Shown: one piece after another, positions 10,566-18,062 of the stretch
Position numbering within the stretch: position 1 is the stretch's first letter
Layout of the letters: each line of letters begins with the position of its first letter
DNA from: Zwartia panacis
GTDB lineage: Bacteria; Pseudomonadota; Gammaproteobacteria; Burkholderiales; Burkholderiaceae_B
Reading direction: 5' to 3'
Assembly (NCBI RefSeq): GCF_030410395.1
Contig: NZ_JAUHHF010000015.1
Location: 1 to 59,141 of the forward strand
Length of the DNA: 59,141 bases
The notes under the pieces: model-generated
What the model saw: only the letters and a program-made list of their open reading frames with translations
What the model was told of the DNA's origin: nothing
Database searches by the model: none
Made by a program: the position numbers and the translations under genes

Positions 10566-11057
10566 TCACTCTTCATGCAATGTGTATCGCTTCAAGTGCT
10601 GAGCCTCTTTGAGCAACTGATCCCAGCTGTCTGGTGGATGACCACTCTCTAACATTTTGCGAAACACCAGATAAGCGTCGTCATTGCTTTCATACGCGCG
10701 CTTAGTGTCATCATCGTTCACCCACACATACACAATCATCTTAGCTTGTGCGTGATAACGAAAAAACAAACGATATTGTTGAAAGAATTTAGCGCGAAAC
10801 CAATGTTTGCGATCTGATCCGAGAGTGCCACCCTGACGATACTCAACTCGCATCGGATCTTGCGGGACGACTTCAAATGCCAACTTCAGGATTGCAGCTA
10901 AACGCTTGCTAGCATTCTTCTTTGCATATCCGGTTGGATCCTTTATTTTTAATAATTCAACCTGACTGACGAGTTGTTCAAGTTGATTTAAAAAAAGTGG
11001 GTGTGCAAATACTGTCCAACCATTAATCACGAGTCCTTCATTTGACGCACGGTTCAC
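10566..11057 (-). CDS. yhaV: Type II toxin, YhaV family ribonuclease
   Basis: YhaV is a RelE-like ribonuclease toxin. This 163-residue protein matches the family through VINGWTVFAHPLFLNQL at the N terminus, the basic RVEYRQGGTLGSDRKHWFRAK centre, and FRYHAQAKMIVYVWVNDDDTKRAYE, where the family catalytic basic and acidic residues lie. It starts at 11057 and overlaps the stop of the antitoxin gene by four bases, giving translational coupling with antitoxin first. Its stop is immediately beside the end of the convergent adenosyltransferase gene. Confidence 0.92.
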   Translation of the reverse strand: MNRASNEGLVINGWTVFAHPLFLNQLEQLVSQVELLKIKDPTGYAKKNASKRLAAILKLAFEVVPQDPMRVEYRQGGTLGSDRKHWFRAKFFQQYRLFFRYHAQAKMIVYVWVNDDDTKRAYESNDDAYLVFRKMLESGHPPDSWDQLLKEAQHLKRYTLHEE

Positions 11058-11386
11058 TCATTTTCTTCCGATAAAGGTGAATCTAAATCAACGTCGATAC
11101 CTTCGACTAATGATTGCGCCCGTTGAACAAAAGCGGGATCAACTGCATGCAAGCGCTCAGGGTGCGTTGCGATATCGCGGGTCAGGAAACCCAGAAACAC
11201 ATCAAGTGCTGGGTCATTCGTTTCGCTGGCTTCTGCTCGCGTCATCATCACCCCTCCCTCAGGGAGGATGGTGTAATGAATTTTGTCCCGCTTTCCCAAG
11301 CGCAAAGCACGACGGACCGTTTCCGGTACGGTCGTTTGATAACGATCAGTCAGTTTGGACTCAACTTCAAGCTTGATGGGCATCAT
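11054..11386 (-). CDS. prlF: Type II antitoxin, PrlF family
   Basis: The antitoxin partner of YhaV. Residues about 5-50 form an AbrB-like swapped-hairpin DNA-binding domain (KLTDRYQTTVPETVRRALRL then DKIHYTI and GGVMMTR); the acidic C-terminal half (DVDLDSPLSEENE at the end) would bind and neutralise the toxin. Length (110) is normal. The start at 11386 is followed by a second ATG at 11383; neither has a strong ribosome site. The promoter-embedded palindrome at 11421-11440 is the likely autoregulation operator. Confidence 0.9.
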   Translation of the reverse strand: MMPIKLEVESKLTDRYQTTVPETVRRALRLGKRDKIHYTILPEGGVMMTRAEASETNDPALDVFLGFLTRDIATHPERLHAVDPAFVQRAQSLVEGIDVDLDSPLSEENE

Positions 11387-11418
11387 GCATAAGGAATTAG
11401 CATTTGATAGAAGCTCGA

Positions 11419-11448
11419 ATAGTAATGCATATGCATTACTTGCGTCAA
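11419..11448 (-). promoter_or_regulatory. prlF-yhaV promoter with a perfect 20-bp palindromic operator
   Basis: On the minus strand TTGACG (11443-11448) is a good -35 and TACTAT (11419-11424) a fair -10, separated by 18 bases. The perfect palindrome AGTAATGCATATGCATTACT (11421-11440) fills the spacer and overlaps the -10. A dimeric repressor bound here would block RNA polymerase. It lies about 35 bases before the prlF start, the position expected for antitoxin autorepression. Confidence 0.75.
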
Positions 11449-11466
11449 ATGGATGAATCTCTCATG

Positions 11467-11538
11467 AAAATTGATATCCATTAGTTATCAATTAATCATT
11501 AAGTTTCATTTTACGTGCATCAGTTCTGCTTCTAGTAT
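11467..11538 (+). promoter_or_regulatory. LysR-type box A and promoter of the Bug/dehydratase/aldolase operon
   Basis: ATTGATA-N9-TATCAAT (11470-11492) is a perfect 7+7 inverted repeat of LysR-box form (T-N11-A inside). It is followed by TTTACG (11510-11515), a 17-base spacer and TAGTAT (11533-11538), a reasonable -35/-10 pair. The box centre lies near -64 relative to the expected start of transcription, the classical LysR activation position. Bases 11467-11514 match 15656-15703 at 43 of 48 positions. Confidence 0.78.
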
Positions 11539-11574
11539 GTGGGGGTTCGTCCAACAATGGATCGGGAGACCCTC

Positions 11575-12537
11575 ATGAAAATAAAACTTATCCACACATT
11601 GATGTTTGGCTTGGCGGTGGCGATCAGCGCTCCGTCATGGGCTCAAGAGTGGCCCACAAAACCCGTTAAATTACTCGTCGGCTCCTCACCCGGCGGTGGC
11701 ACGGATGCGATGGCCCGCGCAGTCGCCGACAAGCTCACACCCATGTGGGGGCAAACTGTCGTGGTCGAAAACAAACCCGGCGCATCGAATACCCTCGCCG
11801 CGGACATCACAGCCAAAGCAACAGATGGCCAAACGATGCTCATGGGTGTCTCGACCGCACAGGCGATTGCGCCACACCTGCTCAAGCTCAACTACAACAA
11901 TGAAACAGACCTCGTGCCTGTGGCCTTTACCGGTTCCGTTCCGAACGTCCTCGTTGTCGCAGCCAACAGCCCTGTCAACAGCGTGCAAGATCTGGTGAAA
12001 CTACTCAAAAGCAAACCCGGTCAACTGAACTTCGCCTCAAGTGGCGCGGGCAGCACCCAGCACATCGCCGCCGAACTCTTTAAAGATTTGGCGGGCGTCA
12101 ATGCCGTTCACGTGCCCTACAAGGGCAGCGGCCCAGCCATGATCGATTTGATCGCGGGTCAAGTTCAGTACGCATTTGAAACAATGTCCTCAGCTTTGCC
12201 ACAAATTCGTGCAGGCAAACTCAAGGCGCTTGGCGTCGCAAGCGAGGCGCGCAATCCTCAGTTGCCCGACACCCCCACGATGAAAGAGGCTGGCGTGCCT
12301 TTGGTGATGAGCGCCTGGTATGGCGTCTACATGCCCGCCAAAACACCACAGTCTGTCATCAACAAAGTCAATGCCGATGTGAACAAGACGCTGGCGATGC
12401 CTGACACGGTCAAGCGCCTGGAGACAATCGGCGCGACGATTCAGCCCATGTCACAAGCGCAATTCAAGGCGTTTCACGACGCCGAAAATAAGCGCTACTC
12501 CGATGTGATTAGAAAGAACAACATTCAAGTGAATTAA
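11575..12537 (+). CDS. Bug family (TctC-like) periplasmic solute-binding protein
   Basis: Bug proteins are periplasmic binding proteins, often for carboxylates, that serve tripartite tricarboxylate transporters or act as orphan sensors; they are greatly expanded in Alcaligenaceae. The start [17 protein letters not shown] leads into a signal peptide cut after SWAQ (about residue 24), followed by [28 protein letters not shown], the Bug hallmark, and later [18 protein letters not shown]. The ATG at 11575 has GGGAG upstream; an earlier in-frame ATG would spoil the signal peptide. No TctA or TctB membrane genes are in the window. It is the first gene of the sugar-acid-like operon. Confidence 0.93.
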
Positions 12538-12578
12538 TTAAAAGTTGCCCGTTTAAAAGCTGCTCAGGAAGTCTATTT

Positions 12579-13751
12579 ATGAAGATCAAAGCCGTCCGCG
12601 CCCGTGTGTTTGAATGGAAGGGAAAAACCGTTCCACCCCAGGGTAATTTTTGTTCAAACGCCATGGATCTGGTGTACTCAAAAAATGAAACCATGAGTAC
12701 CTTCCGTTTCCATTCGTGGACGGTCGTTGAAATCGAAACCGATCACGGCATTGTCGGTCTCGGTAACGTTGCGCTCGCACCCAAGATCGCCAAAGCCATC
12801 ATCGATGAATACCTCGCTGCCATGGTCATCGGCGAAGATCCCTGGGACTACGAATACCTGTGGCAAAAAATGTATCGCGGCACACACGCATGGGGACGCA
12901 AAGGCGTCACCATGGCCGCGATTTCTGCCATCGACCTGGCGATCTGGGACATTCTTGGAAAAAGCGTCAACAAACCCGTATTCAAATTACTGGGTGGCCG
13001 TACCAAAGAAAAAATTCCCTGTTACTACTCCAAGCTGTATCGCACCGACTTGAATGAAATGCAAAAGGAGGCACAGACGTTTCTCGACCAGGGATTCAAA
13101 GCCTTCAAAATGCGATTTGGGTATGGCCCCGCACATTTGCAACATGGCGTAGTAGAAAATCTCAAATCCGTCGCGGCGGTCCGCGAGGTAATCGGTGATG
13201 ATACAGATCTCATGCTCGAGTGCTATATGGGCTGGAACCTCGAGTACGCGAAGCGCATACTGCCCAAACTGGAAAAGTATGCGCCACGCTGGCTCGAAGA
13301 ACCTGTCATCGCCGATGATATCGATGGTTATGCCGAGCTCAATCAGCTGACCAGCATTCCGATTTCCGGTGGAGAGCACGAATTTTCTTTATACGGTTTC
13401 AAGCAGTTGCTTGATCGAAAAGCCGTTTCTGTGGTTCAGTACGATACGAATCGAGTTGGTGGCATCACTGCCGCCCACAAGATCAACGCACTATGCGAAG
13501 CCTATAGCGTCCCAGTCATTCCTCATGCGGGGCAAATGCACAACTATCATTTGACGATGAGTACACTGGCCTCGCCTATGAGCGAATACTTCCCGATGTT
13601 CGATGTCGAAGTCGGCAATGAATTGTTCTATTACATTTTCGATGGTGAACCTGTTGCCAAGGATGGTTTTATCCAGCTTGATGACAACACCCCCGGGCTT
13701 GGACTCACGCTTAAGACCGAGTTTCTCAAAGACTTCAATATCATCGAGTAA
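12579..13751 (+). CDS. Enolase-superfamily acid-sugar dehydratase (mandelate racemase / rhamnonate dehydratase-like)
   Basis: This 390-residue protein has the capping N-terminal domain and the MLE/MR barrel. Metal ligands are visible in [20 protein letters not shown] and [13 protein letters not shown]; the second-strand base motif reads FKMRFGYGP, and the seventh-strand histidine lies in [13 protein letters not shown]. The KMRFGYGP and GQMHNYH signatures remind me of rhamnonate- and related sugar-acid dehydratases, which remove water from an aldonic acid to give a 2-keto-3-deoxy acid. The gene lies 41 bases after the Bug gene and three bases before an aldolase-family gene, which fits dehydration followed by retro-aldol cleavage. 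The exact acid is not determined. Confidence 0.85.
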
Positions 13752-13754
13752 TCA

Positions 13755-14678
13755 ATGGCCGCACACCCCAGATATCAAGGCGTATTTCCCGTTGTCCCGA
13801 CTATTTTTAAAGAGTCCGGAGAACTCGATCTGCCAAGTCAAAAACGTTGCATCGATTTCATGATCGATGCGGGATCGCACGGCTTGTGCATCCTGGCAAA
13901 CTTCTCCGAGCAGTTTTCGATTTCTGATGACGAAAGGGAACGGCTTACACGCGAGATTCTGGAGTATGTCGCCGGACGCGTTCCCGTCATCGTCACGACA
14001 ACGCATTACGGATCGCTGATTTGCGCACAACGCAGTCGACGCGCACAAGACTTGGGCGCGTCGATGGTGATGATCATGCCACCGTATCATGGCGCGACCA
14101 TTCGCGTGCCTGAGCCTAACATTTACGAGTTTTTTTCAATCGTCTCGGACGCGATCGACATCCCCATCATGATTCAGGATGCGCCGGTCAGCGGCACCAC
14201 TTTATCCGCTGCATTTCTGGCAAAGATGGCGACCGAAATCGCCAATGTCTCCTATTTCAAAATTGAGACCCCCGGCGCAGCAAGCAAACTGCGTGAACTC
14301 ATCAAGCTCGGTGGCGATGCGATCGAAGGCCCCTGGGATGGTGAAGAAGCCATCACCTTACTGCCCGATCTCGAAGCAGGCTGTACCGGTGCCATGACGG
14401 GTGGCGGTTATCCAGATGGTATTCGTCAAATCATGGATCCATGGTTCGCAGGCAATCGTGACCAGGCGATTGACGCCTACACACGCTGGCTGCCTCTGAT
14501 TAATTATGAAAACCGCCAGGGCGGGATTTTGTCTGCGAAGGCCCTCATGAAAGAAGGGGGCATCATCGCGTCCGATGTTTCAAGACACCCATTCCCAGCC
14601 ATGAACCCAGCCGTGCGTAGCGGACTGATCGAGACCGCCAAGCGACTTGATCCATTGGTGTTTCGCTGGGGGAAATAA
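13755..14678 (+). CDS. DapA/NanA (DHDPS) family aldolase or dehydratase
   Basis: This 307-residue (beta/alpha)8 protein has the Schiff-base lysine in YFKIETPG (about residue 171) and the family tyrosine in MMPPYHG. The usual GTTGE loop reads ANFSEQF, as in sugar-acid members rather than true dihydrodipicolinate synthases. Members cleave 2-keto-3-deoxy sugar acids or decarboxylate keto-deoxy glucarate. Its position three bases after the dehydratase supports action on that enzyme's product. A dapA call is not supported because context is catabolic. Confidence 0.85.
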   Translation: MAAHPRYQGVFPVVPTIFKESGELDLPSQKRCIDFMIDAGSHGLCILANFSEQFSISDDERERLTREILEYVAGRVPVIVTTTHYGSLICAQRSRRAQDLGASMVMIMPPYHGATIRVPEPNIYEFFSIVSDAIDIPIMIQDAPVSGTTLSAAFLAKMATEIANVSYFKIETPGAASKLRELIKLGGDAIEGPWDGEEAITLLPDLEAGCTGAMTGGGYPDGIRQIMDPWFAGNRDQAIDAYTRWLPLINYENRQGGILSAKALMKEGGIIASDVSRHPFPAMNPAVRSGLIETAKRLDPLVFRWGK

Positions 14679-14682
14679 GGCA

Positions 14683-14717
14683 GGCTAGACCTTCTGACGT
14701 CGTCAGGGGTCCTAGCC
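14683..14717. other. Interrupted hairpin between convergent genes
   Basis: GGCTAG (14683-14688) pairs with CTAGCC (14712-14717), and CTGACG (14694-14699) with CGTCAG (14701-14706) inside it. The structure lies between the convergent aldolase and lysR genes and could stop transcription from either side, but neither strand shows a T-tract, so it is not called an intrinsic terminator. Confidence 0.4.
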
Positions 14718-14720
14718 AGT

Positions 14721-15641
14721 CTATTGATCTGGGTGCAGCATCGTTAAGAAAGCCCGGGTTGCCGGGGAACAAGGTCGGTCACGCTTGATCAGGCTGCCAT
14801 ACGGCTCCAGCTTGTTCTTGATCCGGTAACGCAGCACTTTGATGCGCCCGCTATCCGAAAAAATACTCGCGACCGACTCCGGTATGACTGCGATCATATC
14901 GGTGCGAGCGACGATATCCGCAGTGGTCAAAATCGACGATGTCTCGATCAGATTGGCAGGTAACACGAGATGCTGATCCCGGAACTCCCGCTCAATGACT
15001 GTGCGCATCGGACTGCCGGGTCCCTGAAGGATCCAGGGATACTGATGCAACGCCTCCAAAGTGACCTTGGATTTTCCCGCGAGGGGATGGTTGGCGGCCC
15101 CCACAATAGATAAGGCCTCGTTGGCGATCGGTCTAAACAGATAGTCATCGTGTTTGACGCTCACGATGCGTCCAATCACCAAGTCCAAGTCCCCTTGATT
15201 CAAAGCCTCGATCAACACATCGCTGGTCCCCGTCGAAATATTGATCGATAGCATCGGATACGAACGCCGCATCGCGATCAGCGCATCCGTCAGAATCGCG
15301 GGCGAAGCCGCCATGATGCTGCCCAGCGATAGCGAACCATGGATGCCGGTATGCATCGCATCAAGTTCACGCGCCAGTGACTCCAGACTCCCTCTCATGC
15401 CCTGAAAAAAACCGAGCACTGTCTTGCCCGCCGCGTTGAGCGTCAGCGTCCGGCCGGTTCGGTCAAAAATCTTTGTACCCAACGCATCCTCGAGCTCGTG
15501 CAGCATTTTGGTCGCAGCTGGCTGGGTCATTCCCATCGCCAGGGCGGCGGCACGCAAGGTGCGGTGCTCCTGAATACTGAGCAAAAGCGACACCTGCCGC
15601 ATCCGCAATCGGTTTAATAAGGTATGAGAATAGTTCGTCAT
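14721..15641 (-). CDS. LysR family transcriptional regulator (GbpR-like)
   Basis: Residues about 10-70 form the LysR winged helix (QVSLLLSIQEHRTLRAAALAMGMTQ and then PAATKMLHELEDALGTKIF), followed by the periplasmic-binding-like effector domain. The opening with the long N-terminal stretch before the helix and the QPAATKMLHELE motif resembles GbpR-type regulators of sugar uptake and catabolism. It is convergent with the dehydratase/aldolase operon and divergent from the PdxA-like gene. The 23-bp inverted repeat at 15659-15681 starts 18 bases upstream of its start codon and recurs before the Bug gene, so it is the best candidate to bind both. Confidence 0.92.
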   Translation of the reverse strand: MTNYSHTLLNRLRMRQVSLLLSIQEHRTLRAAALAMGMTQPAATKMLHELEDALGTKIFDRTGRTLTLNAAGKTVLGFFQGMRGSLESLARELDAMHTGIHGSLSLGSIMAASPAILTDALIAMRRSYPMLSINISTGTSDVLIEALNQGDLDLVIGRIVSVKHDDYLFRPIANEALSIVGAANHPLAGKSKVTLEALHQYPWILQGPGSPMRTVIEREFRDQHLVLPANLIETSSILTTADIVARTDMIAVIPESVASIFSDSGRIKVLRYRIKNKLEPYGSLIKRDRPCSPATRAFLTMLHPDQ

Positions 15642-15655
15642 TGAATGATCTATTT

Positions 15656-15727
15656 AAAATTGATAACCTTGAGATATCAATTAATCATGAAGTTTCATTT
15701 TACTGGAATTGATTAGCTCCTTAGAAT
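15656..15727 (+). promoter_or_regulatory. LysR-type box B and promoter of the PdxA-like gene
   Basis: ATTGATA-N9-TATCAAT (15659-15681) is followed by TTTACT (15699-15704), exactly 17 bases, and TAGAAT (15722-15727), five of six bases of the -10 consensus. The layout is the same as before the Bug gene at 11467-11538, and the first 48 bases match that element at 43 positions. The element also lies directly upstream of lysR on the other strand, so autoregulation is likely. Confidence 0.8.
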
Positions 15728-15739
15728 GTCGGGAAAGAT

Positions 15740-15784
15740 GCTTTAAAACCCCTGCTTTAAAACCCCTAGTCGCGAATCTTCGCG
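15740..15784 (+). repeat. 14-bp tandem repeat and hairpin in the PdxA-like gene leader
   Basis: GCTTTAAAACCCCT occurs twice without a gap (15740-15753 and 15754-15767). Four bases later CGCGAA (15771-15776) and TTCGCG (15779-15784) form a perfect hairpin. Both lie inside the predicted leader, downstream of the promoter at 15699-15727 and before the start codon at 15816. A role in mRNA structure or protein binding is possible; nothing similar precedes the Bug gene. Confidence 0.65.
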
Positions 15785-15815
15785 CTGTGATGCCCTGGCC
15801 ACAAAAGAAACCCTC

Positions 15816-16841
15816 ATGCAAAAAGCTCTTCCTGTTGTCGTCCTGACCCTCGGCGATCCCGCCGGCATCGGCCCCGAACTCATCGCGCGCCTGCTCGCTC
15901 AACACCCTGTCAGCACCCTCGCCAATGTCGTCATCGCCGGTGACCGCTGGCTATGGGAGCAGGGCCAACGCATCGCACAGGTCAGCGTACCCACAGCAGA
16001 TATCGACTCGTTTGAGGCGGTCCGTCAGCGTCCCAATCAACAGCTTCCCGCTTTTTTATCCATCCAGTCGATCGAACCCAGCAATGTCACCATCGGTCAG
16101 GTCAGTGCACTCAACGGTCAGTCCGTTTTAAAGATCCTGGATGCCTGCATGGATGCGACACTGGCGGGTCATGTCGATGCGATCTGCTTTGCCCCACTCA
16201 ATAAACAAGCCATGAAAATGGGTGGCATGAAGCACGAGGACGAGCTGCACCACTTTGCCGAATACTTGGGCGTGACCGGTTATTTCTGCGAGTTCAATAC
16301 ACTCGGCAACCTCTGGACCTCGCGCATCTCCTCACACGTCCCGCTCAAAGACGTCGCCCAGTACCTCAGCAAAGAGCGCATCGAACAAGCCTCGGAGCTC
16401 ATTTACAAGGCATTGCTCGCGAGCGGCTTTGAACAACCCAAAATCGCCATCGCTGCATTTAACCCGCATGGTGGGGACGGAGGATCCTGCGGTCGCGAAG
16501 AGATCGACATTATCGCTCCCGCCGTCGCCGCACTTCAGGCTAAAAACTGGCCCACCGAGGCTCCTTTTCACGGTCCATTTCCGGCCGATACGATTTTCTT
16601 GAAAGCCCAAGCCGGCGAGTATCAGGCGATTGTCACCATGTATCACGACCAGGGACAAATCGCGATCAAGCTGCTCGGTTTTTCAAGAGGCGTCACCGTC
16701 CAAGGCGGTTTGCCTATTCCCATCACCACACCCGCACACGGCACGGCCTACGATATCGCCGGGAAAGGTCGGGCAAGCGTAGAAGCCACTTGGCAGGCCT
16801 TTCAAATCGCCGCGCGTATGGGCCAGTCCTGGCGGCCATGA
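15816..16841 (+). CDS. PdxA-like 4-hydroxythreonine-4-phosphate dehydrogenase family protein (PdxA2 type)
   Basis: Family members oxidise and decarboxylate phosphorylated 4-carbon acids with NAD and a divalent metal. Seen here are LTLGDPAGIGPELIAR at the start, the metal-site histidines in HEDELHHFAEYLG, MYHDQGQIAIK and TTPAHGTAYDIAGKG, and NPHGGDGGSCGREE. Catabolic PdxA2 proteins act on D-threonate- or D-erythronate-4-phosphate after a DUF1537 kinase; no such kinase is visible here, so the substrate may differ. The promoter-proximal LysR box ties it to the dehydratase/aldolase operon. Its stop overlaps the LysE-type gene (ATGA). True PdxA for vitamin B6 is less likely in this context. Confidence 0.85.
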   Translation: MQKALPVVVLTLGDPAGIGPELIARLLAQHPVSTLANVVIAGDRWLWEQGQRIAQVSVPTADIDSFEAVRQRPNQQLPAFLSIQSIEPSNVTIGQVSALNGQSVLKILDACMDATLAGHVDAICFAPLNKQAMKMGGMKHEDELHHFAEYLGVTGYFCEFNTLGNLWTSRISSHVPLKDVAQYLSKERIEQASELIYKALLASGFEQPKIAIAAFNPHGGDGGSCGREEIDIIAPAVAALQAKNWPTEAPFHGPFPADTIFLKAQAGEYQAIVTMYHDQGQIAIKLLGFSRGVTVQGGLPIPITTPAHGTAYDIAGKGRASVEATWQAFQIAARMGQSWRP

Positions 16842-17440
16842 TTGATTGGCAAATTGTGATTGCGATGGCGATGTTTGCCTTCGCCTCGTCAATCACGCCA
16901 GGTCCGAACAACATGATGTTGCTCAGTTCGGGCGTGAACTTCGGCTTTCAGCGCACCATTCCCCACATGCTTGGGATTTCATCAGGTCATCTGGTGATGC
17001 TGCTCGCCATTGGCGCCGGTCTTGACCAGCTTTTCCAAGCCTTTCCGCTTGGCTATCAGATCATGAAGGTCGTTGGCTTTTGCTATCTGGTATATCTGGC
17101 CTGGCGCATTGCATTTAACCAGACGCCTTTACAGCGCGGTGAAACAAAAGGCGAACCCTTAGGCTTTATGGGAGCGGCACTATTTCAATGGGTCAATCCA
17201 AAAGCGCTTCTGATGGCAGTGACTTATTTCAGTAACTACATGCCAATCGATGCGTCAAACACGTTCATCTTTTCAACGTGTTTAATGTTTACCGCAATCA
17301 ACCTGCCTTGTCTGGCCCTGTGGGTACTGCTAGGTACCCAACTCGAACGCGTCTTATCCAAACCACGGCAGCGTCAAATATTTAACGTCGTAATGGCGCT
17401 TTTACTGATTTTGTCGATGGTGCCCGTGCTGTTTCTTTGA
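16838..17440 (+). CDS. LysE family exporter
   Basis: The 200-residue membrane protein has about six hydrophobic segments and the family signature SSITPGPNNMMLLSSG near the N terminus, with QWVNPKALLMAV in the middle. LysE/RhtB proteins export amino acids and similar small metabolites. The ATG at 16838 overlaps the PdxA-like stop by four bases, so they are co-transcribed, suggesting relief of a metabolite formed by that pathway. The substrate cannot be read from the sequence. Confidence 0.88.
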   Translation: MIDWQIVIAMAMFAFASSITPGPNNMMLLSSGVNFGFQRTIPHMLGISSGHLVMLLAIGAGLDQLFQAFPLGYQIMKVVGFCYLVYLAWRIAFNQTPLQRGETKGEPLGFMGAALFQWVNPKALLMAVTYFSNYMPIDASNTFIFSTCLMFTAINLPCLALWVLLGTQLERVLSKPRQRQIFNVVMALLLILSMVPVLFL

Positions 17441-17441
17441 C

Positions 17442-18062
17442 TCAGTGCGTCGCAACGCGTTCACGCAGCGCCACAAACAACTTAATCAAAATCAAGGTCT
17501 CCGGTACTCCGGAGATATACGCGTCGTAATAATCAAAACTCGTCTCCGCATACATTGGATCAAAGCCTGACAATCCGTCCAGATAGGAATAGACGTGCCA
17601 GGCGATGAGCGGCAACAGCCACAGCGTGCGATTTTTATCGACGGCCTGTTTTTTAATCAACCAGTATGCGAACCCTAAGTACACCACTACAAACAGCGCA
17701 AAAATACCCACTGGTATGGTGAAAAAGCCTCCGCTTTGTTCCAAAAAATCAGTCGCGGAGTTGGTCAAGAAATATGCGCCAATATTAAAAATCGAAACGT
17801 AAAAATACATTTTCCAGAGTTCATCTGGATTATCGAACGCTTTGAGCTTGACTGGAGCCACAGCGACTGAGGGAGTGGACGCTTGAGCGGATACGACAGG
17901 TGGCGCAGGTGATACGGGAGGTACAGCTGGCACAGGAGGGATGGGAGGTACAGGTGCGACAGGCTCCGCCGCTGACGCAGGCGTCAACGCGTGACCACAG
18001 GCGCTACAGAAACGGGCATCGGCCGGATTTTTAGTGCCGCATGCTGTGCAAAAAGACATCAC
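17442..18062 (-). CDS. Zinc-ribbon membrane protein of unknown function
   Basis: The N terminus is a double CxxC zinc ribbon (FCTACGTKNPADARFCSACG), followed by a Pro/Val/Ala-rich linker (residues about 33-70, VPPIPPVPAVPP type) and then about three hydrophobic segments in the C-terminal part (FNIGAYFLTN; PVGIFALFVVVYLGFAYWL; LWLLPLIAWHVYSYL). The 206-residue protein is of no family I can name. It is convergent with the LysE gene, one base from its stop, and has its own upstream gap. Confidence 0.75.
   Translation of the reverse strand: MMSFCTACGTKNPADARFCSACGHALTPASAAEPVAPVPPIPPVPAVPPVSPAPPVVSAQASTPSVAVAPVKLKAFDNPDELWKMYFYVSIFNIGAYFLTNSATDFLEQSGGFFTIPVGIFALFVVVYLGFAYWLIKKQAVDKNRTLWLLPLIAWHVYSYLDGLSGFDPMYAETSFDYYDAYISGVPETLILIKLFVALRERVATH

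Follow-up and report, generated by a model that had tools for sequence, protein, structure and literature searches.

Twin promoter elements beside a lysR gene of Zwartia panacis: candidate copies of one LysR-type control module serving a split operon

Results

Twin elements at the lysR locus

A contig of Zwartia panacis (NZ_JAUHHF010000015.1, 59,141 nt; this whole stretch is called the window, and coordinates refer to it unless a locus handle is given), which belongs to a genome of 3,341,787 bases in 54 contigs, carries the genes for a Bug-type solute-binding protein, an enolase-superfamily protein and a DHDPS-family protein, followed by a converging lysR gene and, divergent from lysR, a gene for a PdxA-like dehydrogenase (Table 1). 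Two closely similar predicted promoter elements, one in front of the Bug gene and the other between lysR and the pdxA-like gene, are the subject of this work, and we propose that they are copies of one LysR-type control module.

An earlier reading of this DNA from the letters alone (the sequence-only reading in the following) had described two copies that are 4.2 kb apart, agree at 43 of 48 positions and each contain the dyad ATTGATA-N9-TATCAAT, followed by a -35 hexamer TTTAC(G/T), exactly 17 bases and TAG(T/A)AT, with the box centre near -64, one copy lying beside lysR and the PdxA-like gene and the other before the Bug gene. Direct comparison of the bases (11467-11514 and 15656-15703) bears out every part of this description, the position at about -64 on the assumption that transcription starts 7 nt past the predicted -10. 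In a repeat search the pair extends to 11460-11514 and 15649-15703 at 85% identity. The chance expectation of such a pair in the window is 1e-11 for the composition of the window and 2e-6 for the AT-rich composition of the element itself, and the best match in 20 Markov-1 simulations of a 4.9-kb region reached 30/48.

Within the 3.34-Mb genome the exact dyad occurs at these two places only, with 13 further places at two mismatches. No third copy of the element was found in the genome, neither with the 14-mer AAGTTTCATTTTAC at up to one mismatch nor with a profile, which detects the two copies at E 7e-21 and 1e-20 and whose two other matches (E 0.002 and 0.03) come from reading these dyads on the complementary strand. 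The region 11000-17500 gave no Rfam match for an RNA element at gathering thresholds. We assign the system to the LysR type based on two features, i.e. the regulator combines an N-terminal LysR helix-turn-helix with a LysR substrate-binding domain, and a dyad of the T-N11-A / ATA-N9-TAT form is located between the divergent lysR and pdxA-like genes, 17 bp from the lysR start codon. The leader of the pdxA-like gene additionally holds a perfect tandem 14-bp repeat, TGCTTTAAAACCCC (15739-15766).

Table 1. Genes and predicted control features of the locus (window coordinates)
Feature	Position	Strand	Remarks
Dyad ATTGATA-N9-TATCAAT, predicted primary LysR site, Bug side	11470..11492	+	exact match; centre 11481
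Conserved block TAAGTTTCATTTTACG overlapping the -35, Bug side	11500..11515	+	predicted activation subsite plus -35
Predicted promoter, Bug operon	11510..11538	+	TTTACG 11510-11515, 17 nt, TAGTAT 11533-11538
Bug / TctC-type solute-binding protein	11575..12537	+	Pfam TctC 4.9e-68
Enolase-superfamily (mandelate racemase type) protein, probably acid-sugar dehydratase	12579..13751	+	
DHDPS-family protein	13755..14678	+	closest solved relative L-2-keto-3-deoxyarabonate dehydratase
Strong hairpin, possible terminator without T run	14678..14722	.	fold -26.5 kcal/mol, z -2.46
LysR-type regulator, predicted binder of both elements	14721..15641	-	Pfam HTH_1 5.1e-15, LysR_substrate 3.5e-37
Dyad ATTGATA-N9-TATCAAT, predicted primary LysR site, lysR/pdxA side	15659..15681	+	exact match; centre 15670
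Conserved block GAAGTTTCATTTTACT overlapping the -35, pdxA side	15689..15704	+	
Predicted promoter, pdxA-like unit	15699..15727	+	TTTACT 15699-15704, 17 nt, TAGAAT 15722-15727
PdxA-like dehydrogenase	15816..16841	+	Pfam PdxA 1.7e-85
LysE-type transporter after the pdxA-like gene	16790..17440	+	Pfam LysE 1.4e-15; open frame overlaps pdxA, true start uncertain

Conservation of the elements within the family

We use the term Zwartia clade for the group with a close lysR (at least 89% identity), which comprises the window, G251 (L005), G249 (L006), G267 (L007), G260 (L008) and G253; the lysR of G253 is a partial gene at a contig end, and the contig of L008 ends inside the Bug gene. The nearest species-named genome is that of Zwartia vadi (L007), whose LysR is 91% identical. 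Both elements are present in all five clade genomes in which both sides are assembled, the window included. The pdxA-side element occurs in 6/6 clade genomes, the left arm of its dyad reading AATGATA or TATGATA in the five genomes other than that of the window. The Bug-side element occurs in 5/5; its dyad is exact in three and altered in the left arm in L006 and L007. As -10, the five Bug-side copies without exception have TAGTAT and the six pdxA-side copies TAGAAT. In L008 (3159-6881) the lysR promoter and pdxA are separated by the genes for a TRAP transporter (DctP, DctQ, DctM) and an amidohydrolase-family gene. Of the 32 genomes of the genus that were searched, 25 are without a LysR match at E 1e-40 or better, and in one of the same genus, G265, a LysR of 36% identity was found with no profile match at its gene.

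When 268 genomes of the same family were searched with the LysR protein, 44 contained an orthologue (at least 47% identity, the partial G253 counted), and the exact 14-mer AAGTTTCATTTTAC was found in 42, with 46 matches in total. Both are shared by 39 genomes, the site lying beside the cluster by coordinates (Fisher p 9e-38, a value that overstates the association because the genomes are related). Five genomes have the orthologue without the exact 14-mer. Four of these (G008, G083, G087, G184) carry a variant block at the equivalent place, and in the fifth, G089 (L081 6595-6676), the dyad and TTTACG are kept and the -10 is gone; the 16 kb fetched for this locus contain no pdxA, dehydratase or DHDPS gene and a single, distant Bug match (35.5%), and the promoter looks like a relict. 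Conversely, three genomes (G079, G152, G264) have the 14-mer without the orthologue. One match outside the cluster is located inside a coding frame by position (L098) and another at a locus without any of the six query genes (L099).

Test beyond the family

Profile R2, which is sequence-only and was trained on 23 sites that all come from the window's own family, was run on 399 genomes of the order and gave matches in 22 genomes at E<=0.01, nine of them at E<1e-4; 14 matches were weak (E 0.0015 to 0.009). Six of the nine genomes lie outside the family, and in all six lysR, pdxA and an enolase-family gene are found around the site, with a DHDPS-family gene within the fetched stretch in five. A further set comprised 299 genomes of a single other family, to which G397 belongs; here R2 was positive in 19 genomes at E<=1e-4 and a search with the LysR protein in 22 at E<=1e-75. 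All 19 R2-positive genomes, four of which (G315, G397, G434, G466) had already been met among the 399, fall among the 22 with a lysR orthologue, and all sites adjoin lysR by coordinates. Moreover, when an ungapped matrix was applied to both strands of the fetched lysR loci (21 of about 3.9 kb and one of 2.5 kb), its best match was located directly upstream of lysR and directed away from it in 22/22, with TANNAT at exactly 17 bases in 18/22. The three genomes with an orthologue and no R2 match (G735, G827, G934) had the lowest matrix scores, 23.7 to 29.3. By handle, the element-bearing loci span four families (f1, f49, f31, f5). The search of related genomes for the element upstream of the same genes, proposed by the sequence-only reading as a check, turned out in its favour, both within the clade and in the other family.

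Of the 14 weak matches, the one in G544 was examined. This second, weak site in a genome of another family (L140 10241-10283; E 0.005 and 2e-4) precedes the gene of an MFS transporter whose best NCBIfam match, below the cut-off, is a D-galactonate transporter subfamily. As it has no clear -10, this site is noted and not counted.

The conserved parts of the module

Side by side and without gaps, 14 promoters from 12 genera and four families share one layout, i.e. dyad, 17 bp, -35, 17 bp, -10, and TANNAT is present in 14/14. Eight rows are lysR-cluster promoters of the window's own family, anchored on the block, and the other six were found with the profile, so that part of the agreement is built in, the profile covering all parts. 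Mean majority identity reaches 0.90 in the block TTTCATTTTACGGAA; it amounts to 0.85 and 0.79 for the dyad arms, 0.81 for the -10, 0.64 for the dyad centre, 0.60 for the linker and 0.53 for the remaining spacer, and falls to 0.41 upstream and 0.45 downstream of the module. Over distance it is the block over the -35, not the dyad, that is the most constant part in these sequences. The sequence-only reading was right that conservation reaches beyond the inverted repeat up to the -35, but the block is itself the most conserved part rather than an extension of the repeat.

The rows of g2, g10 and g27 have a right arm of the GTGAAC type. The left arm has remained ATTGAT in g2 and g10; in g27 both arms conform to GTTCACC/GGTGAAC. 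In the helix-turn-helix of LysR from the same three genera NMTQSAAS replaces GMTQPAAT or a near form of it, a stretch which we take to hold the recognition helix. Right arm and helix have changed together, the arm from a TATCAAT to a GAACGGT type, with the -35 block unchanged. As this is probably one event in one lineage, the co-change is a hint and not a statistical test.

The constancy of the block through this change suggests that it may not be read by LysR. It is possible, though in our view not probable, that LysR owes its specificity solely to the distal dyad, that RNA polymerase or another protein reads the proximal block, and that the module was copied in the Zwartia clade to keep the split operon under one signal.

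Alternatively, two proteins might share the module, LysR reading the dyad and a second regulator, e.g. of the IclR type, reading TTTCATTTTACGGAAA over the -35 as its operator. This would agree with the constancy of the block during the change of arm and helix, with the dyad GTTTC-N8-GAAAC that the block forms in the g2, g10 and g27 rows, and with a 14-mer match away from the cluster, one of three such matches (L097 4970-4983), which is followed by GGGAA and has a divergent IclR-family gene on one side and a TauD-Bug unit on the other. However, the block is not symmetric in the window, all but three (G079, G152, G264) of the 46 exact 14-mer matches in the 268 genomes are at this cluster, and the gene families tested revealed no further regulator gene in the cluster. 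As a conserved -35 plus a LysR activation subsite would account for the block, we consider a second regulator unlikely.

The high similarity of the twins themselves could have yet another origin. Their identity of 43/48 in the window is unusually high as compared to 40, 35, 35 and 34/48 in four relatives, and the pdxA-side copy of the window is closer to Bug-side copies than other pdxA-side copies are. Gene conversion, chance convergence or retained ancestral bases may underlie these values. It is nevertheless very improbable that the twins resemble each other owing to recent copying by gene conversion instead of selection for shared control, since between species the two copies are conserved independently, each where it stands, and families without a twin retain a single site with this geometry; gene conversion could at most add to the identity. 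Finally, TTGATA-17-AATCAT, which the promoter scan lists at both copies (9/12 matches) and which would turn the dyad itself into the core promoter and leave TTTAC-17-TAGNAT unused, was rejected as a hardly credible candidate, since AATCAT is not kept in other genera, in contrast to the TANNAT 17 bp past the -35.

One promoter in most relatives, two in the Zwartia clade

In the loci read from g2, g10, g27, g29, G087 and four f49 genera, lysR is divergent from a Bug-pdxA-dehydratase-DHDPS unit and one site was seen; the DHDPS gene is not present in the stretch read from G466. In G083, G364 and G544 pdxA is the first gene after the promoter, a distant Bug gene (33-34%) ending the set in G083 and G364, and no Bug match was found in the fetched cluster of G544. 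Among the element-bearing loci, the Zwartia clade, a freshwater lineage, is alone in having Bug-dehydratase-DHDPS separated from pdxA, both units being preceded by a copy of the element. The four loci without the element (G110, G111, G125, G225) are rearranged as well. The simplest account would be that the twins stem from an ancestral divergent promoter that was duplicated along with the operon split; no remnant gene was seen that would prove such a duplication.

Genes of the locus and likely pathway

The nearest solved relatives of the enolase-family protein are 3stp, 3ssz and 3sqs (E below 1e-180), named putative galactonate dehydratase or mandelate racemase family protein, and the DHDPS-family protein matches L-2-keto-3-deoxyarabonate dehydratase (7c0c) with E 3.5e-147 over 304 residues. 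The PdxA-like protein stays below the PdxA equivalog cut-off (TIGR00557, 260 bits vs 290.35), and another PdxA-family match exists in the genome (contig C5, 36% identity). Based on these relatives, the sub-threshold PdxA score and the second PdxA-family match, the gene set likely serves the uptake and breakdown of an acid sugar.

The non-phosphorylative pentose acid pathway leads from L-arabonate to alpha-ketoglutarate semialdehyde. The set described here resembles it in that the DHDPS-family protein is very close to L-2-keto-3-deoxyarabonate dehydratase and is preceded by the enolase-family protein, but differs in that a PdxA-like gene and a Bug protein belong to the set. Among the listed papers of the open-licence literature, as judged by titles and abstract starts, there was no account of this gene set, and in the main text of PMC6336799 neither LysR nor 4-hydroxythreonine occurs.

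The best NCBIfam match of the regulator is PcaQ, the LysR regulator of protocatechuate genes, whose box ATA-N10-TAT is related to the dyad. The assignment as PcaQ was rejected, the score for TIGR02424 (142.3 bits) being far under the cut-off of 303.8, and no pca gene is found among the tested neighbours. The hairpin between the converging DHDPS-family and lysR genes is absent from the terminator scan list.

Discussion

Taken together, we infer, with a probability of roughly 0.85, that the two elements represent duplicates of an old LysR-type control module that serves a split operon and is activated by the encoded LysR. The claim of the sequence-only reading that a single LysR protein controls both flanking operons finds strong support in the comparison, as all five clade genomes keep both copies and every profile match in the 299 genomes of the other family adjoins lysR; it has to be amended in that the twins would represent an ancestral promoter duplicated at the operon split.

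The consensus of LysR-type transcriptional regulators is CTATA-n9-TATAG, as compared to TGATA-n9-TATCA here, and the sites of OccR are at -64 and -33, as given in PMC5002191. The promoters of OccR, CatR and PcaQ treated there (IR1/IR2/IR3) share with the locus the divergent arrangement of regulator and target, an ATA-N9-TAT dyad, here with a predicted centre near -64, and a second conserved region near the -35 (PMC5002191), whereas the second full promoter copy 4.2 kb away before a second operon and the acid-sugar-like downstream genes set the locus apart. By analogy to OccR, a LysR dimer would occupy the dyad at -64, and activation would come from another dimer bound closer to the -35 in the presence of the inducer (PMC5002191). 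Judged by its sequence, the module is probably a LysR activation module of known type, and the twin arrangement is uncommon, being found in one clade.

Thus, we envisage that LysR is anchored at the dyad centred near -64 and that, once an inducer, probably an acid sugar or a breakdown intermediate, has bound, it reaches positions from about -40 to -31 and assists RNA polymerase at the weak TTTAC(G/T)-17-TAGNAT promoter. The Bug-side copy would drive the Bug, dehydratase and DHDPS genes and the other copy the PdxA-like gene. In most relatives read, one divergent promoter would drive all four genes, and in the Zwartia clade the operon would have been split with each part keeping or receiving a promoter copy. 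LysR bound at the pdxA-side copy may also limit its own gene, as autorepression is plausible by position, the dyad being so close to the lysR start codon. TTGATA-17-TTAAAT, picked out by eye as a minus-strand promoter of lysR, was rejected, its -10 not being kept in the four relatives compared.

Several observations weigh against this interpretation. Both promoters are weak in terms of consensus, with 9/12 matches on the pdxA side and 8/12 on the Bug side, the latter being missing from the promoter scan list for this reason; such weakness is expected for an activated promoter, but equally for a chance one. The -35 block stayed constant while the LysR helix and the right arm changed. Room for a second regulator is also left by the 14-mer matches at three places outside the cluster, of which one adjoins an IclR gene. 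The element is absent in L088, L089, L090 and L096 despite a LysR of 42-44% identity near the same enzymes, and it is also absent at nine loci with a LysR of 25-28% identity (L009-L017). Autoregulation is a positional guess, because the minus-strand lysR promoter is not conserved.

If LysR acts as proposed, the repeat pair becomes a well-defined and testable regulon that is kept across several families of one order, with a module of fixed 69 bp and a candidate acid-sugar pathway. It would also be a clear example of a promoter that is doubled where an operon is split, and it gives a hint of a regulator helix and its box changing together.

A neighbouring toxin-antitoxin pair

Divergent from the Bug operon lies a toxin-antitoxin pair of the PrlF-YhaV type (10566-11386, minus strand), upstream of which a perfect 20-bp palindrome, AGTAATGCATATGCATTACT (11421-11440), is a likely operator. 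Six relative loci were searched for the pair; L005 and L091 have both genes, and L007 has a part of prlF. A promoter-like sequence for the pair, TTGACG-18-TACTAT, is located at 11419-11448 on the minus strand, and as the Bug-side dyad would lie at about -69 of this promoter as well, LysR could touch both directions.

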